DNA from: Candidatus Omnitrophota bacterium
GTDB taxonomy: Bacteria; Omnitrophota; Gorgyraeia; Gygaellales; Profunditerraquicolaceae
Direction: 5' to 3'
Length of the DNA stretch: 37,994 nt
Assembly (NCBI GenBank): GCA_028712255.1
Contig: JAQTQJ010000017.1
Coordinates: 1-37,994, forward strand
Part shown: piece after piece, positions 4,807 to 37,688 of the stretch
Layout: every line of letters begins with the position of its first letter
Position numbering within the stretch: the first letter of the stretch is position 1
The notes under the pieces: generated by a model
Told to the model about the DNA's origin: nothing
Seen by the model: only the letters and a program-made list of their open reading frames with translations
The model's database searches: none
Program-made: the position numbers and the translations under genes

Positions 4807-5635
4807 TCAAGAAACTAATGCAACACCTTAACCTGCTATAATGGCAGGAGAAAGGAGTTGCTAATGATTAAATACCAAAGAATTACGTTCGTGGAGCGAG
4901 AAGAAATTAGCCGGTACATTGCTTCAGGATACAGTAGCCGGAAAATTGCTCAAAGCCTTAATCGGCTGCCAAGTACTATCTCTCGAGAAATTATTCGCTT
5001 GGGAGTTATAGGACGAAAATATTATCGGGCTATTTTCGCTCAACAACAATCAAACAAAATGCGCCATAAGTTACGTAAAAATCGTAAGTTTGATAACAAC
5101 ATCCCCTTGCGCGAAGTCGTGCTTTATTATTTAGCAAAAAACTGGTCACCGGAACAAATTGCCAAGAGCCTAATTATATTGTATCCTAATGACATGATTA
5201 TGCGCGTATCTCATGAAACTATTTATTCGTACCTCTATATTCTACCACGCGGAGCATTAAAACGTGAAATAGTATCATCTTTATGACGGCATCATCTGCA
5301 TCGCCGAAAAGTTCCGCCAATTGCCCAAAGGTTTAAAAAGAACATTAACCTATAATCAAGGCCGAGAGATAGCTCAACACAAACTTTTTTCAAAAGAAAA
5401 CAGAAATAACCGTTTACTTCGCGCATCCTAGCTCCCCTTGGGAACGAGGAACAAATGAAAACACGAATGGTTTAATACGAAAGTATTTTCCTAGTGAAAC
5501 AGATTTTAATAAGATCTCTATAAATAGACTTAAAGAAGTCCAAGACGAATTAAATGATAGACCGCGAAAAACACTTGGTTTTTATACACCTCTTGAAAAA
5601 TTCTGTGAAGTGTTGTGTTAGCAATTTGAATCTAC
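4801..5635 (+). mobile_element. IS30-family insertion sequence, degenerate and internally deleted
   Basis: The remnant is bounded by imperfect inverted repeats: left about 4801-4826 (ending TAATGCAACAC) and right about 5610-5635 (beginning GTGTTGTGTTAG), sharing GTGTTG and TTGAA blocks. It encloses a broken IS30 transposase. At about 0.83 kb it is shorter than intact IS30 relatives (about 1.0-1.2 kb), which fits an internal deletion. The element is not expected to move by itself. Confidence 0.75.
4864..5621 (+). pseudogene. IS30-family transposase, disrupted
   Basis: The first 140 codons from ATG 4864 (AAAGGAG site upstream) encode the IS30 N-terminal region: a helix-turn-helix (SGYSSRKIAQSLNRLPSTISREI) and the NWSPEQIAKSL segment with HETIYSYLY. 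A TGA at 5284-5286 then stops the frame. The C-terminal catalytic part continues after it in shifted frames: LTYNQGREIAQHKLF in one frame near 5340-5390 and then VYFAHPSSPWERGTNENTNG, with RPRKTLGF, in another up to TAG 5619-5621. The segment between the RRK region and LTYNQG, which carries the first catalytic Asp of the DDE triad, is missing. Both the deletion and the frameshift inactivate the enzyme. Confidence 0.88.
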
Positions 5636-5682
5636 CCACCTCTCTAGGGAGCGGACATTTTATATCTTCTTACACTTATAAC

Positions 5683-6021
5683 CTAATCATGTTCCTTCTT
5701 AACCAACAATCTGCCTACTACCATTACCACAATAATAATTAAACCTATACCTACAATTGCAGATATTATATAAGCAAAACTTAACTGCGATAGCCCCTTT
5801 CCCTCCCAACCCTTGAAAGCATAATCAGGCATAGGCGCATTCCAAAGGCTAGAGAGTTTTTCAAGACCCTGAGGAATATATCCTACAAGTTTCTGCATCT
5901 CATCAGCTCCCCATTCACCCCAAGCTGATCCAGCCTTAAAATGTTCAGGCAATAATAAGCCCAGCGGAGAAAAAATAGCTAAAATACCTAACCCTATCCA
6001 TAATTTATTAGTGAGTTTCAT
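5683..6021 (-). CDS. PDGLE/CbiN-like subunit of nickel/cobalt ECF transporter
   Basis: A 112-residue membrane protein with an N-terminal helix (about residues 5-25) and a C-terminal helix (about 82-105) separated by an external loop. The segment SPLGLLLPEHFKAG plus the loop pattern KGWEGKGL is that of the PDGLE-type partner that accompanies CbiM in nickel and cobalt uptake systems, where CbiN/NikN-like subunits help load the metal. I start at ATG 6021 (GAGGTG site), which overlaps the end of cbiM by 14 bp, rather than at the upstream GTG inside the ribosome site. The energising CbiQ and CbiO subunits are not in the window, so it depends on subunits encoded elsewhere or works as a CbiM-CbiN pair. 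Confidence 0.75.
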   Translation of the reverse strand: MKLTNKLWIGLGILAIFSPLGLLLPEHFKAGSAWGEWGADEMQKLVGYIPQGLEKLSSLWNAPMPDYAFKGWEGKGLSQLSFAYIISAIVGIGLIIIVVMVVGRLLVKKEHD

Positions 6022-6703
6022 TGGCCACCTCACTTTCCTTAATAAATTCCGGGGAATGTTTTTGTAAATATTTAATTACTAAAGCTGTAACAATCGCCTC
6101 AACCCATCCAAATATCAATAAATGCTCTCCTAGCATTACAGGCACTGCTACCTTGAAACCATACGGACAATAAAGAGATTGTCCGTTTGTAGCATGATGT
6201 AATAAAGGCTGTAGCCCGAATTCAACACCAGCAAAAAAAGCAGCGACATTAATACCTATATATCCTGCTATGCCAGCAGCTAATACTCTTCTTTTTGAAC
6301 CCATAGGTGCATTATAACTAATCGCCCTATATACATAATAACCTACAAAAGGTAGAACAAGCGCCATATTAAAACAATTAGCGCCAATAGCCGTAATTCC
6401 ACCATCACCAAACAAAAACGCTTGGATAACTAATGCTACGGTTAAAGCAATGCAAGCTGCCCAAGGGCCAAGAAGTATCGCTACCAATACCCCACCCACA
6501 GCATGTCCAGTTGTTCCTCCTGGTATTGGCACATTAAACATCATAATCACAAAACTAAATGCCGCGCCTATTGCCAACATCGGTACTTGTCTAGCTTTTA
6601 ATGTCTTCTTAACAACTTTTGATGCAACCGTCCATATCGGCAACATTACCGCGTAAAATACGCCGCAAGTTGCCGGCCCTAAATATCCATCTGGTATATG
6701 CAT
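6008..6703 (-). CDS. cbiM: CbiM-type nickel/cobalt transporter substrate component
   Basis: A 231-residue integral membrane protein that begins MHIPDGYLGP, the invariant N-terminus of CbiM/NikM in which the amino group, His2 and nearby His bind Ni(II) or Co(II). Further signatures are MFNVPIPGGTTGHAVGGVL and GDGGITAIGANCFNMALVLPF. Six to seven hydrophobic helices follow. CbiM is the substrate-capture S component of group I energy-coupling-factor transporters. It lies 11 bp after the porin gene and overlaps the PDGLE gene, so the three form an operon for metal passage across both membranes. The nearby nikR argues that the substrate is nickel rather than cobalt. I see no cobalamin riboswitch upstream. 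Confidence 0.93.
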   Translation of the reverse strand: MHIPDGYLGPATCGVFYAVMLPIWTVASKVVKKTLKARQVPMLAIGAAFSFVIMMFNVPIPGGTTGHAVGGVLVAILLGPWAACIALTVALVIQAFLFGDGGITAIGANCFNMALVLPFVGYYVYRAISYNAPMGSKRRVLAAGIAGYIGINVAAFFAGVEFGLQPLLHHATNGQSLYCPYGFKVAVPVMLGEHLLIFGWVEAIVTALVIKYLQKHSPEFIKESEVANETH

Positions 6704-6714
6704 ATTCCCTCCTT

Positions 6715-8088
6715 TTAAAAATCTATCTGCGCCCTCATCCCACCCACAAAAATTCCATTTACATCATCTACAACATCCTTACCAAAAGGATTCCAGATAT
6801 ATTGAAAATCAGGGCTGATTGACAAATGGTCATTAACATGAATGTTGTAATACGCCTCTAGGTGCCCTTCTGGCTTTGCCTTCAAGTCTGATATTTGTGT
6901 ACCGTATTTCTTATAGTCCTTTGAAGGTATAGCTTGACCAACTGCAAAGGCAAACACATCTTTCTCTCTCCCCCAAGGCTTTCCTTCCACCTGAAAACCA
7001 GTACCCCAGGAATGCGTTAGTGAATAATTCAAATCTCCTGTCGCCGTAATGTCTGGATTATATACTTTCGGATTCTGCCAGCCGTAGCGGGCAAAAAGTG
7101 TTATAATATCGTTAGCTTTCTGATCAAAGCTTAAACCAAAGCCATAGTTAGCCTCTTTTGTCTTCTCTATGTCTCGCCATTCAGTATGATAGACATTGTT
7201 ATTCCACCCTAAAAATCGGTAGTTTCCGGGTAGATTAAAGAAATTAGTTTTAAAATGTACCTGCCCGATATTAAAAAGATTGTCACCGATTTTCTCCCAA
7301 TCACTATTGCCATCAAATAAACCATATCCCAATTCCAACCATCCAACCGGCATATATGCTAAACGGATACCTGCGGTATTATCCGGAAATTCTATTGTCG
7401 GCGAATTACGGAAAATCCTGCCTAAAAATTGAGTAGTTTCATCATTAGCAACTTCGCTTTGATCAAAATATGCAGTAGGATCAAGCTTTCCAAAAGTTAA
7501 AGCAACTTTATCTTCGAATAAAGCCTGCTCATACCAAAATTCGGTGAGGCGTACATTATTATCATTATCAGCGTCACGATTGACGTTTGAGTAAAGAGTT
7601 AAATCATCCTCAAGCCCTGCTCCCTGTCCGGCTTCCAGATGTAAGAATGCCTTTCCTCCTATTTCCTTAAACTCTTTACCAAGGGTTATGTCTGCTGAAT
7701 AAGAAGCATCTGCGCGACCCTCTTTCTTGGTTACGTCGGAAGTGGCGTTATTTGTATTATTTGTACCCTGAACAATCATGGTGCCACCCGCTCCAAGCTC
7801 AAGGCCTTCCATAAGTTTCATCGGAATACCGGGTATTTCATGAAGATTTTCTTCAAATTTTGATAATTTTGTTTCGTATTCTGTAATCTTTTGCTGCTGC
7901 ACTTGGGTTGTCGTATTTTGAGCAGCAATATATATATCTTGCTCGGAAACTTTCTTCTCTAAAGTAGCAATACGTTCTTTAAGCTGATTGATTTCCTCTC
8001 TGATAGAAACCTCATCAGCAAAAACCGCTGGAGAACAAAGAAAAGAAAAAACTAGAGAAAATAATGCTACTTTCTTTAAAACCGCCAT
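6715..8088 (-). CDS. Outer-membrane porin, OprB-like, probably nickel-related
   Basis: A 457-residue porin. It has a signal peptide (MAVLKKVALF, cleaved after VFA-D near residue 25), a coiled coil (about 28-70: EINQLKERIATLEKKVSEQ and on) typical of trimerisation or peptidoglycan contact, then a beta-barrel rich in aromatic alternating strands ending in the outer-membrane signature AQIDF with C-terminal Phe. Segments such as EFWYEQALFEDKVALTFGKLDPTAYFDQ are characteristic of carbohydrate-selective OprB-type porins. ATG 8088 is preferred because an AGGGGGG ribosome site lies seven bases before it and the signal peptide starts there. Position as first gene of the cbiM operon suggests it admits nickel complexes. 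The sugar-porin name is from family resemblance only. Confidence 0.85.
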   Translation of the reverse strand: MAVLKKVALFSLVFSFLCSPAVFADEVSIREEINQLKERIATLEKKVSEQDIYIAAQNTTTQVQQQKITEYETKLSKFEENLHEIPGIPMKLMEGLELGAGGTMIVQGTNNTNNATSDVTKKEGRADASYSADITLGKEFKEIGGKAFLHLEAGQGAGLEDDLTLYSNVNRDADNDNNVRLTEFWYEQALFEDKVALTFGKLDPTAYFDQSEVANDETTQFLGRIFRNSPTIEFPDNTAGIRLAYMPVGWLELGYGLFDGNSDWEKIGDNLFNIGQVHFKTNFFNLPGNYRFLGWNNNVYHTEWRDIEKTKEANYGFGLSFDQKANDIITLFARYGWQNPKVYNPDITATGDLNYSLTHSWGTGFQVEGKPWGREKDVFAFAVGQAIPSKDYKKYGTQISDLKAKPEGHLEAYYNIHVNDHLSISPDFQYIWNPFGKDVVDDVNGIFVGGMRAQIDF

Positions 8089-29290: not shown

Positions 29291-29668
29291 TTACTTTTTC
29301 TTATTCGGTATTCCAGAGTGCGAACCTACGCTTGGGCTGGAATTCGCCTTAAATTCTCCTTTCTTATATTTCTCAATCGTTTCTTTAACAGTACCTGATG
29401 CGCCGGTAAAAACTTCTACCCCTGCCGCTTGTAATGTTTGAAAAGCATTCGGCCCGACGTTTCCCGTAACCACAGCCTTAACCTGTTTTGAAGCAACCAA
29501 CTGCGCAGATTGAATTCCCGCTCCACCCATAGATTCGATATTCGGGTTCCCAATAGCCTCGAATTCTAAAGTATCGATATCAACAATAATAAAATTCTGA
29601 CTCCGGCCAAAACGGGGATCAACCTTGGAATCCAAATTTTCGCCTTCTGAAGTGACACATATTTTCAT
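29291..29668 (-). CDS. NifX/NafY-like dinitrogenase cofactor-family protein (1)
   Basis: A 125-residue protein of the dinitrogenase iron-molybdenum cofactor biosynthesis fold. It starts KICVTSEGENLDSKVDPRFGRSQNFIIVDID, and continues GAGIQSAQLVASKQVKAVVTGNVGPNAFQTL, with a Lys/Ser-rich tail. Free proteins of this fold include the Orange Protein of sulfate reducers, which binds a Mo-Cu-S cluster together with MinD-like ATPases. Since MinD-ferredoxin copies lie nearby and no nif genes do, an Orange-protein-like role is more likely than nitrogen fixation. Confidence 0.87.
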   Translation of the reverse strand: MKICVTSEGENLDSKVDPRFGRSQNFIIVDIDTLEFEAIGNPNIESMGGAGIQSAQLVASKQVKAVVTGNVGPNAFQTLQAAGVEVFTGASGTVKETIEKYKKGEFKANSSPSVGSHSGIPNKKK

Positions 29669-29684
29669 ATTTCAACCTTTCTTC

Positions 29685-30062
29685 TTAATGGCATCCTCCG
29701 CCATCGCCATGATCTTTACAAGCATCAAGGCCGCCCAAAGTATTATTCATAAAATCATCCAGTGCTTTTTGCACATTACCAACATAGCCAAACACTTTAA
29801 CTCCAGCGCTGGCAAATTTCTGCTGAGCGCCCATGCCCATACCTCCAGCGATAACATGGGTTATCTTATGCTTTAATATCTCATCGACTGCAACACACCC
29901 TCCCCCACCATGTACAGTATTATTCGGTACAATACGCGAACTGATTATTTTCTTCTTATCCTTATCAATATCCGCTAAGAAAAAAAACTTACACTGCCCA
30001 AAATGCGCGCAGACATTACCTTTCACTCCATTTTCATCTTCTAATACGACTCCGACTCTCAT
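29685..30062 (-). CDS. NifX/NafY-like dinitrogenase cofactor-family protein (2)
   Basis: A 125-residue homologue of the downstream gene. It reads MRVGVVLEDENG, then CAHFGQCKFFFLADID, and THVIAGGMGMGAQQKFASAGVKVFGY, ending in a Gly/His/Cys tail ACKDHGDGGGCH that may bind metal. Its core contains two further cysteines (VCAHFGQC). ATG 30062 is chosen because the GGGAGG site lies nine bases before it. The two copies differ at the metal-binding ends and could form a heterodimer or bind different metals. It is 16 bp from the other copy. Confidence 0.87.
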   Translation of the reverse strand: MRVGVVLEDENGVKGNVCAHFGQCKFFFLADIDKDKKKIISSRIVPNNTVHGGGGCVAVDEILKHKITHVIAGGMGMGAQQKFASAGVKVFGYVGNVQKALDDFMNNTLGGLDACKDHGDGGGCH

Positions 30063-30104
30063 CTTTAACACCCTCCCTTTAGTTAAGAAAATACTTGGTT
30101 ATTT

Positions 30105-30452
30105 TTAAACAGGTTTTTTCTGATTTTCCGTCTCCTGAATACGCGCTTGCGTATCATCAAGCTGTTTTTTCAATAAATCAGCTTGGATTTTTAATGTCTC
30201 CAATTCCTCCTCTTTGGAAACTGCTCGGCCAAAAACCCCAAATACCTGCATGCCTCTTTGGGCCCTAATCCAACCCGAAAGCCCCGTAGCGTTAAAACAA
30301 TTTCTATATCCACGGCCACCACCCCTACCGTAAAAACCGCGGCCGCTCATTGGCCTTACCAACGTACTATTTAATTCTACCGCGCAATACCCTCTACCAC
30401 CGCCTGTCATTGCTCCTTGGCCTCTTGGCCCTGTTCCGTCAAAACCTGGCAT
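30105..30452 (-). CDS. DUF5320 protein
   Basis: A 115-residue DUF5320 protein: MPGFDGTGPRGQGAMTGGGRG at the start (the family signature), then GRGFYGRGGGRGYRNCFNATGLSGWIRAQ, and a C-terminal coiled coil EEELETLKIQADLLKKQLDDTQARIQE. The Gly-rich head and coiled coil are typical. Function is unknown; these genes accompany NifX-like and MinD-like genes in anaerobes. ATG 30452 has an AAGGTGG site; the GTG nine bases upstream overlaps it. A Fur-like box lies just upstream at 30472-30490, so it may start an iron-regulated unit. Confidence 0.85.
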   Translation of the reverse strand: MPGFDGTGPRGQGAMTGGGRGYCAVELNSTLVRPMSGRGFYGRGGGRGYRNCFNATGLSGWIRAQRGMQVFGVFGRAVSKEEELETLKIQADLLKKQLDDTQARIQETENQKKPV

Positions 30453-30471
30453 ATATACCACCTTCCTTTCC

Positions 30472-30490
30472 GTTACCGAAAATCATTTCC
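30472..30490 (-). promoter_or_regulatory. Putative Fur box before the DUF5320 gene
   Basis: Read on the minus strand, the site matches the E. coli 19-bp Fur consensus at 12 of 19 positions and contains the core AAATGATTTTC, with GAAA/TTTC arms. It lies 20 bp before the ATG. No clear -35/-10 pair is seen beside it, so it is weaker than the sites at 31009 and 32775. Confidence 0.4.
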
Positions 30491-30515
30491 ATTAATAGGT
30501 AAAAAAATATAGCCG

Positions 30516-30989
30516 TTACTTCTTACCGCTACATTGCTCACATACACCATAAAACTGTATAAGATGATTGGTGATTCTAAACTTATATTTCTGCCCCAAC
30601 CCTTTCTCTGTCTGATTAAGCAACTCAACTTCTTCATCAATAAAATCAGTATAATCGATCACCTTATTGCATTGCGTACAAACTAAATGATGGTGATGAT
30701 GCGCTCCTTTAGGGCCTTCGGCAAATTCATAGCGTGCCCGGCCATCTCCAAAATCAAGCTTATATACCATGCCGAGATTTGACAATACTTCCAGCGTCCG
30801 GTAAACAGTAGTCAGCCCTACGCTGGGATACTTGGGATGGATTTTCATATATATATCTTCGGCGCTTAAGTGGCCTTCGGATTTAGACAGAATATCGAGG
30901 ATGGCCTCCCTACCAACAGTAAGCCTATACCCACAACCCCTGAATTTTCCGTGCCACCATCCTTGTCCTTTACAATTACCTCTTGGCAT
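30516..30989 (-). CDS. Fur-family regulator (Fur or PerR type)
   Basis: A 157-residue Fur-family protein with a Gly/Trp/His-rich N-terminal extension (MPRGNCKGQGWWHGKFRGCGY), absent from E. coli Fur. The winged helix contains LTVGREAILDIL and VGLTTVYRTLEVLSNLGMV. The metal region has AHHHHHLVCTQCNKVI and the C-terminal YGVCEQCSG, two CxxC pairs for structural zinc. The Fur-box-like sites on both sides (31009-31027 and 30472-30490) and a third at 32775 make iron the most likely signal; PerR is an alternative. The extension resembles the start of neighbouring small proteins and may carry extra metal ligands. Confidence 0.87.
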   Translation of the reverse strand: MPRGNCKGQGWWHGKFRGCGYRLTVGREAILDILSKSEGHLSAEDIYMKIHPKYPSVGLTTVYRTLEVLSNLGMVYKLDFGDGRARYEFAEGPKGAHHHHHLVCTQCNKVIDYTDFIDEEVELLNQTEKGLGQKYKFRITNHLIQFYGVCEQCSGKK

Positions 30990-31008
30990 TTTTATTCCTT
31001 ATTTTATT

Positions 31009-31027
31009 GAAAATGATTATATCAATA
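31009..31027 (-). promoter_or_regulatory. Putative Fur box over the -10 of the Fur gene
   Basis: The plus-strand sequence GAAAATGATTATATCAATA matches the E. coli Fur consensus at 12 of 19 positions and shares its first 11 bases with the box at 32775-32793. On the minus strand a TATAAT (31016-31021) lies inside it, so occupancy would block transcription of the Fur gene. I see no good -35 hexamer. The site also overlaps the last codons of the radical SAM gene. Confidence 0.55.
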
Positions 31028-32527
31028 TAATTTATTCCCCCTTCTGCCTATTGGGTCAAACCCAAACAATTCCTCCAACCGATGGGGAATCTTTTCGGAA
31101 AGAATCGATAGGCTTGCGGCAGCTAAAGCTAATTTTTCAGCAAAAAGAGCGCAACTTTTTTTATGAGGCACAGCAGGATCTCCATTAAAGAAATAGTTGA
31201 CATTCAAACAAGAGCCCGTTGATCGGCAAAGACTAAATAAATCACAATCTTTCTGGCAATATTCGAACCGCTTATTTATCTTTTTAATAAACGCCTGAAA
31301 TTTACTTTCATTGATACCTTGATCCACGTTTCCCAATTCAAATTCATGCACTCCTAGAAATGAAGTACACGGATAAATTTTACCGTCAATGCCTACCGCA
31401 ATCTGTCCTTTGGCGGCAGGACAGCCCCCTGAAACCTCGTGATTATAATACAACCTTTGCATTAATTTAAAAAACCGATTGAAGAACGTTTTACTATAAT
31501 TCAAATTTCCCGAAACAACATCATCAATATATTTCAATGCCAGTTTTTCATATGTTTTACATAAAAGCTTATAACTATCTTCCGTACTGAAAAAGCTTGT
31601 CTCTTGCCCGGGGAGAAACCTATGGCATGCATCTTCACTCTCAAAAAGTTCAATCCGCTCAAACCCTAGATTCCTTAAATTCTCATACAATTTTACCATA
31701 TCAGGAAAAAATGGAGTTACCGTAGTGCGACCTACCAGTCTTTTCATGACTGCCTTAGGCATTCTTTTAAGATTTGATAAAATTATATCAAAACTACCCT
31801 TTTGGTTAATAAGTGGCCGGTTATTATCATGTACGGCTTTAGGGCCATCGATGCTAACAGCGATTTGCACTCCTTTATCAATCAATTCTTCAGCTACATC
31901 TGGAGTTAAAAGAGTCCCATTTGTTGCCAATAGAAAATGGAACTTTGTTTTCCATTTTAATTGATTTTCCCTGCAATAGTCAACCGTTGCCCTAAGTGTT
32001 TTAAGGTTCATCAAAGGCTCGCCACCGTAAAAATCAACTACTAGATCATTATCTTTACCACGCTCACTGACTAAAATATCCACCGCTTTTAAAGCGGTTT
32101 CAACTGACATATATTCATCTTTAACATTGCTGCTAAATTCCCCTTTTTTCTTTCCCAAAAATCTTTTGTTGGAGTATTTGCCATGGTCATTCCAGCAATA
32201 AACACAGCGAAGATTACAGCTTGACGTCAAATTAAGGGTTAGATCAGTAAGACCGGCAGCCGCGTTCCTATCGGTTTTAAATGATATTTTTTTGTCAGAA
32301 ACTGGAAAAAGTTTTATTATTTCAGAGGGAATATTCAACTTCTTTGCCAAAGCTGCAGCTTTTTGCTTAAAAAAAGAAGACGAAAAAATGGATATTTCTT
32401 TATTCCACTTTTCTAATAAATTAAATATTTCCGTGGGCAGCTCGTAAAAATCTCCCGTAGATGTAGATATGCCAATATACCGACCTAATTTATGAAATAA
32501 AACAACTGGTGATAGTGCCTTAATAAT
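31022..32527 (-). CDS. Radical SAM/SPASM peptide-modifying enzyme, ATT start
   Basis: A 501-residue radical SAM protein with a SPASM domain. The frame is open to a TGA at 32531-32533 and contains no ATG, GTG or TTG before Leu60 (TTG 32350). Three ATT codons follow the TGA, and a perfect GGAGGTG site precedes them; ATT 32527 has the best spacing, so a rare ATT start is chosen. The added N-terminus (SPVVLFHKLGRYIGISTSTG) looks like the peptide-binding start of RiPP maturases. Cluster motif C104-x3-C108-x2-C111 lies in TSSCNLRCVYCWND. Further marks are GGEPLMN, and C-terminal cysteines GGCPAAKG, YPCTSFLG and EYCQKDCDLFSLCRS for two auxiliary clusters. Such enzymes crosslink short ribosomal peptides. 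The precursor candidate is just upstream (32632-32715). Confidence 0.88.
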   Translation of the reverse strand: MIKALSPVVLFHKLGRYIGISTSTGDFYELPTEIFNLLEKWNKEISIFSSSFFKQKAAALAKKLNIPSEIIKLFPVSDKKISFKTDRNAAAGLTDLTLNLTSSCNLRCVYCWNDHGKYSNKRFLGKKKGEFSSNVKDEYMSVETALKAVDILVSERGKDNDLVVDFYGGEPLMNLKTLRATVDYCRENQLKWKTKFHFLLATNGTLLTPDVAEELIDKGVQIAVSIDGPKAVHDNNRPLINQKGSFDIILSNLKRMPKAVMKRLVGRTTVTPFFPDMVKLYENLRNLGFERIELFESEDACHRFLPGQETSFFSTEDSYKLLCKTYEKLALKYIDDVVSGNLNYSKTFFNRFFKLMQRLYYNHEVSGGCPAAKGQIAVGIDGKIYPCTSFLGVHEFELGNVDQGINESKFQAFIKKINKRFEYCQKDCDLFSLCRSTGSCLNVNYFFNGDPAVPHKKSCALFAEKLALAAASLSILSEKIPHRLEELFGFDPIGRRGNKLY

Positions 32528-32602
32528 AATTCACCTCCAAAAAATACAGATTTGTACCTAGTTGTTTAATATCTAATCTGGATTTTTATAAAATTTAGAC
32601 AT

Positions 32603-32634
32603 TAAGAATCTTTCGACTAACTAAAAGATTCTTA
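32603..32634 (-). terminator. Attenuator-like hairpin between precursor and maturase
   Basis: A perfect 11-bp stem (TAAGAATCTTT, 32624-32634, with its complement at 32603-32613) and a 10-base loop. The precursor stop codon TAA is the first three bases of the stem. No long T run follows, so it is likely to reduce rather than end transcription, keeping the precursor mRNA more abundant than the enzyme mRNA, as in many RiPP operons. Confidence 0.65.
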
Positions 32635-32715
32635 CCACAAAACCCTGCCCGATCGGCAGTAACGAGAAAGTTTCTTCTTTGCTTTCGTAGTTTTATTTAT
32701 TTTCCTTACTTTCAT
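32632..32715 (-). CDS. Candidate RiPP precursor peptide, 27 aa
   Basis: A 28-codon reading frame with a strong GGAGGT ribosome site spaced correctly before ATG 32715. It begins MKVRKINKTT, continues with a basic Lys-rich run and ends YCRSGRVLW. It has a single Cys (C20), one Tyr (Y19) and a terminal Trp. Its position is typical of a precursor: directly behind a good promoter, followed by a hairpin and then the radical SAM/SPASM enzyme. A leader (residues 1-17) and core (18-27) are inferred. Candidate crosslinks involve Tyr19, Cys20, Arg21 or Trp27. The peptide is too short for homology calling. If not a precursor, it could be a leader peptide that controls the enzyme. Confidence 0.65.
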   Translation of the reverse strand: MKVRKINKTTKAKKKLSRYCRSGRVLW

Positions 32716-32774
32716 CTCTTACCTCCATTTCAAAGATATATTACCGCTAAAGTTTTTGTAAGTACTCTCTTATT

Positions 32775-32824
32775 GAAAATGATTACCAATAGCAATATTT
32801 TACACTATCTAAGATTTCTGTCAA
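32775..32824 (-). promoter_or_regulatory. Promoter with Fur box for the peptide cassette
   Basis: Minus strand: -35 TTGACA (32819-32824), 16-base spacer, -10 TAAAAT (32797-32802). Immediately after it, at the expected +1, lies a Fur-box-like site (32775-32793, plus-strand GAAAATGATTACCAATAGC) that matches the 19-bp E. coli consensus at 14 positions. Repression by Fur under iron excess is likely, so the peptide would be made when iron is scarce. Confidence 0.75.
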
Positions 32825-34057: not shown

Positions 34058-35746
34058 TTACAACCTAATAATATGAGCTGTCCCGCCGCCGCCGTCATCC
34101 TCATCGTCTTCATCTTGAGCATCCTCTTCCGGGGTTGTCCGCCCAAATTCTGGATGATTAATACCCCTGCCGTGGGGATCTCTTATATCTTCATCTAAAC
34201 GTACAAAACCAGTTTCATTCAGCGCTGCTTCTCGCAGAGCCATCTCCAACGCATCCGGCCCATCATCGTGATCGCCTCTAGGGAAATACTTAAGCTGGTC
34301 AAGCAATACCGTATCCTTTCGGGAGAATAGAATCGTGCCTGTTGTAATATAAGTCTCCATACCAAAGATTCTTAATTCTTTATTCTTAGTGTTGCGGATC
34401 TCCGTAAAAGACGCAACAACATTTTCCCTGTAGGCTTGTTCACGTACGGTATTTAATAAAAGCTCAGGAAACAAATTTGACTCAATAACAAATTTTTCCA
34501 TTCGGTGGCGAATTTTACAGAAATTAATAATAGCTTGAACCAAATCTTCCTGCGGCCTTGGTTTAATATCCACATCAATGACATAGAGTTTACCTCTATG
34601 TTTGGCTAAAACAATAATCGCGGAGTGATCCGAATGGCTCTTCATCACACCAACACTAGGGTCACAGGCGCCAATAATACTATAGTCATCGTCAAAAGAC
34701 CCAAGGAGTTTTTCCACGGTTGGGAATTCATCATCCCAATAATGAAATTTCTCTGGGTCATAACGGCTGTCTTTGGCATTAGCTGGGTCATTTTGTTTCT
34801 CGGATTCAAAACTATATGAACCCTCAATTGCTCTAATCTTCATCAAAGTATAATAATCTTCAACTTCTTCCCAAAGAACCTTAGTGCCTTCAAGCATCGC
34901 ATCCTTATTTTCTTGAAAGAAACTGTCTGCCGCATTCAAGCCTGCTTCATCATTATGGCTATCTCCACGGTTAAATAAAATATTCCCCCATTTCTGCCAT
35001 AAATCTTCTCGCGGAGAGAACGCAAGAACCGCCTTATCAATGCGTTTCTGCCAATCAGGAAACTCTTGCTTTTTGGTTAGGCGGCCCAGCAGTGAATCAG
35101 GATGAAGCAAAGTTCCCACTGCAATTATATTGAGCACTTTAGGTGCTCCGGCCTTAAGAACAGTTTGGGTAAACCAGTCAAAAACCTTTTTTCTGGAATC
35201 GACATTGTAGGTATTTTTTTCGCCATCAACGTCATCAAGAATAATTAAACTCGGCCTATACTGTTCATGCTTTATCCCGCGAAAATTCTGTCCCACGCTT
35301 CGGGCGGAAATCATAATATTATTAGGTGTTACAATCTCTTCCTGCGTCCATTTAGTTTTTGCCTTTTCTTTGGGATTAAAAACCTCTGGAAAATCTTCCC
35401 GCATGGTGCGGTTGGTTTCAAGGGCAGTAGAAATGCTCGATAACAACTTTTCTGACTGATTGGCAGTCGCCGAAAGGATCAGAATGAAATGCTCTTTACA
35501 ATAGCATATCAACCACATCACATAAAAGAAACTTGCTAATGTGCTTTTAGCATGTCCACGTGGCGCAGCTAAAGCAAAACGGCCGTCCCGTTTCTTAGAC
35601 ATATCCATAAGCACATCGCAAATCTCCTCATGAAACGCAGGAGATTTATGAGTTGCGTACTGCGGAAAATAGGTTTGGGCGAATTGCAGAATGGAGTTTC
35701 GGCCAATTTCCCTACGAAGCTCTCTTAGTGTTTCATTGGCGCTCAA
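34058..35746 (-). CDS. terL: Phage terminase large subunit
   Basis: A 562-residue packaging motor. The N-terminal ATPase has an atypical Walker A (APRGHAKST, about 61-69) and a Walker B SLIILDDVDG. The C-terminal nuclease has acidic residues in IGACDPSVGVMKSHSDHSAIIV, an internal EDLVQAIINF segment and a HDDGPDALEMAL end typical of RNase-H-fold terminase nucleases. It cuts concatemeric phage DNA and pumps it into capsids. The last residues are Asp/Gly-rich (EDDEDDGGGG). The downstream neighbours are not portal or capsid genes, so the prophage is broken here. Confidence 0.92.
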   Translation of the reverse strand: MSANETLRELRREIGRNSILQFAQTYFPQYATHKSPAFHEEICDVLMDMSKKRDGRFALAAPRGHAKSTLASFFYVMWLICYCKEHFILILSATANQSEKLLSSISTALETNRTMREDFPEVFNPKEKAKTKWTQEEIVTPNNIMISARSVGQNFRGIKHEQYRPSLIILDDVDGEKNTYNVDSRKKVFDWFTQTVLKAGAPKVLNIIAVGTLLHPDSLLGRLTKKQEFPDWQKRIDKAVLAFSPREDLWQKWGNILFNRGDSHNDEAGLNAADSFFQENKDAMLEGTKVLWEEVEDYYTLMKIRAIEGSYSFESEKQNDPANAKDSRYDPEKFHYWDDEFPTVEKLLGSFDDDYSIIGACDPSVGVMKSHSDHSAIIVLAKHRGKLYVIDVDIKPRPQEDLVQAIINFCKIRHRMEKFVIESNLFPELLLNTVREQAYRENVVASFTEIRNTKNKELRIFGMETYITTGTILFSRKDTVLLDQLKYFPRGDHDDGPDALEMALREAALNETGFVRLDEDIRDPHGRGINHPEFGRTTPEEDAQDEDDEDDGGGGTAHIIRL

Positions 35747-35754
35747 GCGGTCTC

Positions 35755-36414
35755 TTATCCTTTCTCAATATCTTCGATTCGAGTTTTAAGTTCCTTAATC
35801 CCTACGTTAGCTTCCGCCAAGGCAATCTGTCTTTTTACTGCTTCAATCAGCTCGGTAATTTTTTGGTCTACAATGCCCTTGGCGCTAACAATACCTTCAA
35901 GCCGGGCCAATTCTTCTTTTAAATACGCAGGAGTCAAAACTTGTTCATGGCTGTAATGAATATCCGCCTCTATTTGCATTGGCTTGGAAGGAAAATATCC
36001 TAAACTTTGAAGAAGCTTTGCCTGTTCTTCAATAGCTTTCCAAGTATAATAACCGGCCTGCGATTTTTCTTGAATTGAACCATCCTTTGAACGTGATAAT
36101 CTCATCAAGTTCTCATGAGCAGCAGTTCCTTTTGATAATAACTCGCCAATAATTTTTAATCTATCTTCCGGAGTTAATTTCTTGGCATTCCTTTCCCTGA
36201 TATCGTTCTTATCCCGCTGAATTGTCTTATCGCTTACCTGCAAGAGATGCGCCATGACAGCTGTCGGTTGAGCTTCCACATGCCATAAATGTTCAACGCA
36301 GTCTAGGCGTATTTCCGGGGCTAATTTTTTAGGGTCAAATATCCCGTCTCTTATCTGTTTTAGAATCTCAAGAACGGGAGTTTCATCATTAACAGAATTC
36401 TCATCATCAGACAT
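35755..36414 (-). CDS. Phage terminase small subunit-like protein
   Basis: A 219-residue protein located just before the terminase large subunit, the usual place of the DNA-recognition subunit. The N-terminal part includes a helix-turn-helix (VMAHLLQVSDKTIQRDKNDIRERN, about residues 54-77), then helical oligomerisation segments, and a C-terminal coiled coil (ELARLEGIVSAKG and LKTRIEDIEKG). No closer family is clear. It should bind the pac site and recruit TerL. It is eight bases upstream of terL and 14 bp downstream of the methylase gene. Confidence 0.7.
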   Translation of the reverse strand: MSDDENSVNDETPVLEILKQIRDGIFDPKKLAPEIRLDCVEHLWHVEAQPTAVMAHLLQVSDKTIQRDKNDIRERNAKKLTPEDRLKIIGELLSKGTAAHENLMRLSRSKDGSIQEKSQAGYYTWKAIEEQAKLLQSLGYFPSKPMQIEADIHYSHEQVLTPAYLKEELARLEGIVSAKGIVDQKITELIEAVKRQIALAEANVGIKELKTRIEDIEKG

Positions 36415-36428
36415 GGGTATTTACCTCC

Positions 36429-37688
36429 TTATGCCAATCCATATTTGGCTAATACCTCTTTAGAAACTTTCTCTTTCCCTGCAAGGCCTACATACCGCTT
36501 AACAATGCCGTCGCAATAAGCTGGATCAATTTCTGTGCCGAAGCATCTTCTTTTTAATGATTCTGCTGCTATCAGGGTTGTTCCTGAACCTAAGAACAAA
36601 TCCAGCACAATATCTCCCCGCTTGGAGCTGTTTCTTATGGCTCTGTGCGCTATGGCAACGGGTTTTTGGGTTGGATGGATATAATCGGCTGTATTATCGC
36701 GTTTTATCTGCCAAAGGGTAGATTCGTTATTAGGGCCGTACCATTTATGGCTTCCGCCCTTTTCCTTCCAACCATATAAACAAAATTCTGTCTGCTGTTG
36801 ATAATCACCATAGCCTAAAGCAAAAGTCGGCTTAGCCCAGGTAATTACACAAGAAATGTGAAAGTTTAATTCTGCCAACATAAGATACATCGGCCCAAAT
36901 TGCTTATGGCCGTTCCAAATATAAATAGCAGCTCCGGGTGATAGGTAAGTTGCTGCATTGGTCAAAATAGTCTTAAGCCATTTCTCGTATTCTTCCTGAG
37001 GCATGTTGTCAGAATAAATCCTATCCCATAATTTATGTGTGGCTGGACGTGATTGCTCATTGGGTCTATTTCCGCCGTAATAGTCAACATTGTAAGGTGG
37101 GTCTGTGTGAATCAAACCTACTTTTTCATTACCTAAAAGTCTGGCTAAATCTTCAGGCTTAGAAGCATCGCCGCATAAAATTCGGTGATCCCCAAGTTCG
37201 ATAATATCACCGGGCTTGGTCTTAGGATTTTTGTTATTTTTTACATCGCCGTCAAAATCAAAACCATCTTCCTTGGCTTCCTCTAACTGGTCAAGGATCT
37301 CGCTGATTTCAGGAATATCAAAGCCAGTTAAAGTAACATCAAAGTCAGGGCTTTTGTTTAATTCATCCAAAAGTGCCCCAAGTTTTTCCTCATCCCAATC
37401 ACCGCGAATCTTATTTAAGGCTAAATTCAGGGCTTTTTCCTTTTGAGGATCAAGATCAACAACGCTGACTTCCACTTCCTTAACACCTTGCTCAAGAAGT
37501 ACCTTAAAACGCTGATGCCCACCTACGAGGTTCCCGGTCTGGCTATTCCATACCAATGGTTCGACATATCCAAAAGTATTGATGCTTTTCTTGAGTTTCT
37601 CATAATCGGGATCACCGGGCTTTAAGTCAATCCTAGGATTATATGCTGCAGGATTTATTTGATTGATATGTATTTTCTGGATGTTCAT
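36429..37688 (-). CDS. ParB-like nuclease domain fused to DNA methyltransferase
   Basis: A 419-residue fusion. The N-terminal ParB/Srx domain (residues 1-105) has AAYNPRIDLKPGDPDYEKL, GYVEPLVWNSQTGNLVGGHQRFKVL (the GHQR motif). The C-terminal part is a DNA methyltransferase of the beta class: DPPYNVDYYG (motif IV) comes before DLFLGSGTTLIAAESLKRRCFGTEID (motif I). Beta-class enzymes methylate adenine N6 or cytosine N4. Such fusions are common in phages next to terminases, where they probably mark phage DNA against host restriction. The upstream gene overlaps it by ATGA. Confidence 0.93.
   Translation of the reverse strand: MNIQKIHINQINPAAYNPRIDLKPGDPDYEKLKKSINTFGYVEPLVWNSQTGNLVGGHQRFKVLLEQGVKEVEVSVVDLDPQKEKALNLALNKIRGDWDEEKLGALLDELNKSPDFDVTLTGFDIPEISEILDQLEEAKEDGFDFDGDVKNNKNPKTKPGDIIELGDHRILCGDASKPEDLARLLGNEKVGLIHTDPPYNVDYYGGNRPNEQSRPATHKLWDRIYSDNMPQEEYEKWLKTILTNAATYLSPGAAIYIWNGHKQFGPMYLMLAELNFHISCVITWAKPTFALGYGDYQQQTEFCLYGWKEKGGSHKWYGPNNESTLWQIKRDNTADYIHPTQKPVAIAHRAIRNSSKRGDIVLDLFLGSGTTLIAAESLKRRCFGTEIDPAYCDGIVKRYVGLAGKEKVSKEVLAKYGLA

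Follow-up and report, generated by a model that had tools for sequence, protein, structure and literature searches.

This locus raises the question of whether a very short reading frame beside a radical SAM gene is a gene in its own right and, if so, whether its product is what the neighbouring enzyme works on. The window (the whole stretch of DNA that we analysed, a 38-kb contig) belongs to an Omnitrophota genome of 1.7 Mb that is 96% complete. On its minus strand a promoter and a Fur-like site are followed by a 27-codon frame, a hairpin, a radical SAM/SPASM gene, fur, a DUF5320 gene and two NifX-like genes. A preliminary description, made from sequence alone, had read this arrangement as an undescribed RiPP system with a SPASM radical SAM enzyme, yielding a cyclic peptide under iron limitation. 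Our data support an undescribed radical SAM RiPP family, of which peptide and enzyme are likely the precursor and the maturase, with the role of the peptide as substrate inferred; the cyclic product remains an inference of that description only.

A short gene with an invariant core

The 27-codon frame (32632..32715, minus strand; ATG at 32715, stop at 32634-32632) is a genuine gene, encoding the putative 27-aa precursor MKVRKINKTTKAKKKLSRYCRSGRVLW behind a GGAGG at 32726-32722. Its leader (32715-32671) contains a conserved Asn7, and its core, LSRYCRSGRVLW (32670-32635), makes up the last 12 residues before the stop. Conservation of this core is shown directly: it is identical in every enzyme-associated copy, in Omnitrophota and Elusimicrobiota alike, and is written in 19 distinct DNA versions that differ only by synonymous changes, with 0 amino-acid changes. 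Eleven of its 12 codons vary synonymously (2-5 forms each), and the twelfth is TGG. The leader is variable (15-35 residues), Lys-rich and keeps one Asn, and whole precursors are 27-47 aa long, each with a single Cys and with no Asp or Glu within or past the core. The exact back-translated tail matched 15 sites, spread over 13 of 384 Omnitrophota genomes (a reversed-pattern control gave 0); a looser pattern added just one place in the same genomes and, in 295 Elusimicrobiota genomes, matched only the three copies already known.

These results bear out much of what the preliminary description had claimed. The short frame is a real gene, and the sigma70-type promoter (TTGACA/TAAAAT) and strong ribosome site (GGAGG) assigned to it also held. 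Conservation of Y-C-R and a terminal Trp behind a variable leader had been named as the supporting outcome, and loss of the frame where the enzyme is conserved as the refuting one; both motifs proved invariant among the enzyme's partners while the leader varied, and the refuting outcome did not arise, the frame being conserved along with the enzyme. The peptide had been placed outside known precursor types, which held for types with an NCBIfam model: none of these models matches, so the peptide is none of the types that have one. The core string was absent from all papers in the literature we searched, in which we also found nothing linking Omnitrophota, Elusimicrobia and radical SAM.

A diverged pair defines the limits of this invariance. 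Locus L041 (5216-6819) encodes a second maturase (5365-6819), 40-41% identical, with its own 26-aa peptide, MIRLLNRSKGKRRYRAAFCRCGRVLW, which ends FCRCGRVLW and is separated from the enzyme by a very strong hairpin. The fixed residues are therefore Cys, Arg, Gly, Arg, Val, Leu and the terminal Trp, whereas Phe can replace Tyr and Cys can replace Ser.

The stretch between the peptide and enzyme genes is far less constant. The window hairpin (about 32606..32631, minus strand) has counterparts of unrelated sequence in some other copies and none in several, and we rejected it as a conserved element on these grounds. Very strong hairpins occur in the three Elusimicrobiota copies and before the second maturase, and neither the length nor the sequence of the spacer is conserved. 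Rfam had no match anywhere in the window.

The maturase and its genetic partners

The putative maturase (31022..32527, minus strand) has radical SAM and SPASM domains by Pfam, and its CX3CX2C motif and seven further SPASM cysteines align in all homologues that cover them, in agreement with the three cluster motifs described previously. Its nearest NCBIfam families are the PapB, QhpD-type and SCIFF maturases (237.7, 191.1 and 190.7 bits), and it falls under the cut-off of every named family. A profile of 21 homologues aligned to CteB (5WGG) over residues 6-469 (1.2e-61), and the AlphaFold model (pLDDT 83.6) found CteB first among PDB folds (5WGG/5WHY; 24% identity in the fold alignment), followed by anSME, TigE and ChlB. 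The first 90 residues of the model run strand-strand-strand-helix-helix, the order of an RRE, and the alignment spans the CteB N-terminus, though there was no Pfam RRE match; an RRE-like N-terminal domain is thus predicted by the model, without binding data.

The start of the enzyme gene is unusual. Since neither the window copy nor most close relatives have an ATG, GTG or TTG ahead of the conserved N-terminus, an AUU start is likely (32527 or 32524, behind a GGAGG at 32538-32534). The clearest cases have AUU or AUC behind GGAGGTG; starts of this type were seen in the window (32530-32520) and at L038, L041, L042, L043 and L055, with a strong GGAGGTG ahead in several. We infer that an AUU start, together with the hairpins between the genes in several copies, would favour the peptide over the enzyme.

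When the maturase was used to search about 85,000 species genomes of bacteria and archaea, it returned 18 close homologues (56-85% identical), all from Omnitrophota or Elusimicrobiota; one of these is truncated at the end of its contig. The only other match was remote and unrelated. Linkage to the peptide is shown by the 17 homologues with intact surroundings: the peptide frame lies 30-220 bp upstream of the enzyme in 15 and, in L047 and L048, is convergent and just behind it. Of the 384 Omnitrophota genomes, 13 have the peptide; the enzyme is present in these and in G386, whose enzyme copy begins at a contig end, giving 14 in all. A variable leader and conserved core in a ribosomal precursor, genetically tied to a modifying enzyme, meet the criterion for a RiPP.

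One could instead regard the short frame as a cis-acting regulator of the enzyme gene, a leader or arrest peptide as in TnaC-type attenuation, and not as a substrate. Its position upstream of the enzyme in most copies, its conservation up to the stop codon and the hairpins after it in several copies would fit such a role. However, the L047 and L048 copies are convergent and downstream of the enzyme gene, with their own promoter, so the peptide gene is not a cis leader there; a further copy in G073 (L086, G073:C39:5623-5650, with a sulfatase gene adjoining) lacks a maturase for at least 5 kb in both directions; and the spacer is not conserved. We consider attenuation very unlikely, and a ribosomal leader is ruled out by the convergent copies. 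An unlikely, but less remote, alternative would see the peptide as a small, basic protein with a structural or nucleic-acid-binding role, which the enzyme modifies without its being a trimmed precursor. The Lys-rich leader of variable length and the lack of a recognised peptidase adjoining the pair speak for this; the patchy occurrence (13/384) is unlike that of a housekeeping small protein, and the combination of variable leader, invariant core and predicted RRE-like enzyme domain resembles a precursor system. The precursor-maturase reading remains the one we prefer.

The genome of the window holds a second locus (G000:C10:36000-44000; L087, L117) with an intact 36-aa peptide. Its maturase is broken, having suffered a large deletion and acquired a stop, so the window copy, closest to that of G004 (85%), is the only intact maturase we found in this genome. 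The UbiA and variant radical SAM genes at the second locus are also broken, and B12A, B12B and a PMT gene are intact.

B12A, a BchE-like B12-binding radical SAM protein (188/481 bits), tracks the enzyme closely in Omnitrophota. At ≥70% identity it is found in 14/14 enzyme-bearing genomes and 0/370 others (Fisher 7e-26, 384 genomes; G210 was counted as positive through a contig-edge fragment), and within one genus, where the trait is patchy, in 7/7 versus 1/20 (p 9e-6). An exception is G018, a fragmented genome with B12A but without peptide or enzyme, and the copy in G408, an Omnitrophota genome outside these samples, is only 54% identical. B12A lies directly 3' of the maturase in five copies and nearby in two (L041 and the broken copy in the source genome); in the others it lies elsewhere, often outside the peptide locus among glycosyltransferase-like genes. 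Several B12-radical SAM genes were observed amid glycosyltransferase and PMT genes at L114, L119, L122 and L125 (Omnitrophota), with B12A often there. B12A is not universal, because the three Elusimicrobiota copies have no orthologue; two of these have three further B12-radical SAM genes in common near the pair.

Other neighbours recur irregularly. UbiA, prenyl synthase, glycosyltransferase and sulfatase genes are present in some loci; polyprenyl synthase, UbiA and variant radical SAM genes come after the pair in L041, and UbiA and the variant radical SAM gene adjoin B12A in G036 and G405. A prenylated product was rejected, as a close match to the variant gene occurred in only 1/9 further genomes and was broken there. 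Conversion of Cys to formylglycine, suggested by a sulfatase-like C-x-x-x-R motif and adjoining sulfatases, was also rejected (anSME model 82/349 bits; sulfatases inconsistent as neighbours). The preliminary description had suggested looking for a transporter or protease in relatives, and neither a transporter nor a peptidase gene was recognised among the examined genes adjoining the pair.

Position of the window copy in a fur operator

The window copy is preceded by a sigma70-type promoter (32797..32824, minus strand; -35 TTGACA at 32824-32819, -10 TAAAAT at 32802-32797) that aligns to the fur promoter in the loci of five relatives, with a Fur-family operator, TGGTAATCATTTTCAATAA (32770..32788), at the expected +1. 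The site had been described as a 14/19 match to the Fur box; that held with a correction to 15/19 at best, a score that is weak alone (0.4 sites expected per 38 kb, 2 seen). A stronger basis is the consensus drawn from the fur promoters of relatives, to which the window operator has 0 mismatches (a scan allowing ≤3 mismatches gave 4 sites, 0.37 expected). Where relatives carry fur without the pair, the order is TTGACA, about 17 bp, TATATT, then TGGAAA(C/T)CATTTTCA(A/T)TAAGGAG and fur; the promoter of the window peptide is this same element (CTTGACA, TAAAAT, TGGTAATCATTTTCAATAA). The fur-DUF5320-NifX-NifX group (29291-30989) also occurs in relatives G013, G011, G024 and G001, which have the operator TGGAAACCATTTTC in common, 5' of fur, where the region is covered.

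A second copy of one half of the operator, TAATCATTTTCAATAA, lies right before fur (31004..31019, minus strand) as an exact 16-bp direct repeat of 32770-32785, 1766 bp away, and the two copies enclose peptide and maturase. The Fur-family gene (30516..30989, minus strand) starts 32 bp past the maturase stop and is likely in one transcript with the maturase. While the operator match and the flanking repeat are shown, the event behind them is inferred: the simplest account is that the pair entered the fur operator and a short stretch was duplicated in the process, the 16-bp repeat being the footprint of the insertion, with no obvious transposase. On this account the pair would therefore now be under the Fur-family regulator, and sharing an operator with fur of the same lineage supports membership of the window copy in the Fur regulon.

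Fur control, which the preliminary description had attributed to the system, thus held for the window copy only: its promoter was captured from a fur gene, and such control is no feature of the peptide family. The other 18 peptide copies that we checked have ordinary promoters near the ribosome site and Fur boxes of 10-14/19 at best, only L041 reaching 14; since the site is absent from them, iron control is local to the window copy. The regulator itself scores best of its kind against the Fur equivalog (137.9/220 bits; PerR 91.8/180), which makes it Fur-family but under the curated cut-off for iron Fur. Because the promoter was captured, the proposal of synthesis under iron limitation says nothing certain about the general role of the product.

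Upstream of the pair, past 33.3 kb, weak Pfam matches point to a terminase block of phage type, with phage-like terminase and ParB/DNA methylase genes at 34058-37688 directly upstream. Neither viral contigs nor plasmids contained a close relative, and carriage by a phage or plasmid was dropped.

Proposed pathway and comparison with known systems

That the peptide is a substrate, which bond is made, what B12A does and what role the product has are all inferred, there being no product, transcript or mass data. We propose that the maturase would bind the short basic precursor, with its Lys-rich leader and invariant Asn, via the leader through its RRE-like N-terminal domain, and that this CteB/PapB-related SPASM enzyme would modify the core, which ends at a free C-terminal Trp, oxidatively and with the use of its auxiliary clusters. 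The most likely new bond would start from the single invariant Cys as a thioether and, because no Asp or Glu acceptor exists, might run to the C-terminal residue, the carboxylate of the terminal Trp being the only one at a constant place. A Cys-derived bond could, in our judgement, equally well prove right or wrong, and use of the Trp carboxylate is possible but no more than a guess; the bond type is itself a guess, as thioethers of the PapB/QhpD type need the Asp or Glu that is absent here. In Omnitrophota, the co-occurring cobalamin-dependent B12A would probably perform a later step. The product may be one fixed molecule, resembling a cofactor or a signal, and in the source genome its genes would be under the Fur-family regulator through their insertion in the fur operator.

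Antimicrobial cores usually diversify. An invariant core, a drifting enzyme and scattered presence lead us to infer that a fixed small molecule (cofactor or signal) fits better than an antimicrobial. Few radical SAM peptides keep a core of 12 residues unchanged across two phyla while the enzyme drifts to 55% identity, and this points towards a fixed molecular role and not an arms race. We lean against a cofactor-like product in particular. A bolder reading would make the core the source of an unknown ribosomal cofactor, comparable to PQQ or mycofactocin, in anaerobic Omnitrophota and Elusimicrobiota; new SPASM chemistry would join Cys to a residue lacking an acidic side chain (the C-terminal Trp, perhaps) before a cobalamin radical SAM step. 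We regard this as possible but less likely than not. For two phyla of mostly uncultured anaerobes, these data define a pathway that could be rebuilt in vitro from one or two enzymes and a peptide of 27 residues, and they pose the chemical question of what partner a CteB/PapB-like enzyme finds for Cys without any acid. The pair in the fur operator is, in addition, a clean natural case of promoter capture, tying one copy to a Fur-family regulator.

Mycofactocin offers a possible, though unlikely, alternative, in which the maturase would oxidatively decarboxylate the C-terminal aromatic residue and cyclise it to give a redox cofactor. The systems share a precursor of about 30 aa, a fixed C-terminal aromatic residue (in all copies here) and a SPASM enzyme, and the invariant core ends in an aliphatic-aromatic sequence with a free carboxylate, V-L-W, versus V-Y in MftA (PMC7491314). 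However, the mycofactocin core is VY and that of the window peptide LSRYCRSGRVLW; the window enzyme is closer to the thioether makers CteB and PapB; its predicted RRE-like domain is fused to the enzyme and it has a B12-radical SAM partner, unlike mycofactocin; no MftB/D/E/F-like set was recognised among the flanking genes scanned; and it would remain unexplained why Cys and Arg residues distant from the C-terminus are invariant.

Two other families share less. Streptide (SuiA/SuiB, KxxxW) likewise has a SPASM radical SAM enzyme and a conserved Trp, but the K-x3-W motif is missing from the core, and SuiB is a weaker fold match (E 7.8e-13) than CteB or anSME. The cobopeptide system (CbpA/CbpB) is similar in that a peptide-modifying radical SAM enzyme has a short peptide as its neighbour; the CbpB model gives the window enzyme only 68.9/375 bits, and no model matches the peptide.

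The closest likeness is to the ranthipeptide maturases CteB, PapB and QhpD, which combine radical SAM and SPASM domains with an RRE-like N-terminus (only predicted for the window enzyme), give the top family scores and, in CteB, provide the best PDB match by both sequence and fold. The conserved leader Asn parallels the Asn proposed to act in PapA-RRE binding (PMC9413430). The window maturase nonetheless fails the curated cut-offs (340 for PapB, 453 for QhpD-type, 425 for SCIFF), and its peptide, with one Cys and no Asp or Glu, matches neither the PapA/QhpC type (Cys with an Asp or Glu acceptor; Cys-X3-Asp/Glu repeats in PapA, PMC9413430) nor the SCIFF type (six Cys in about 45 residues). No known family claims the pair, because it lacks those features of ranthipeptides, mycofactocin and streptide that we tested; by inference, it likely works in the manner of the ranthipeptides.
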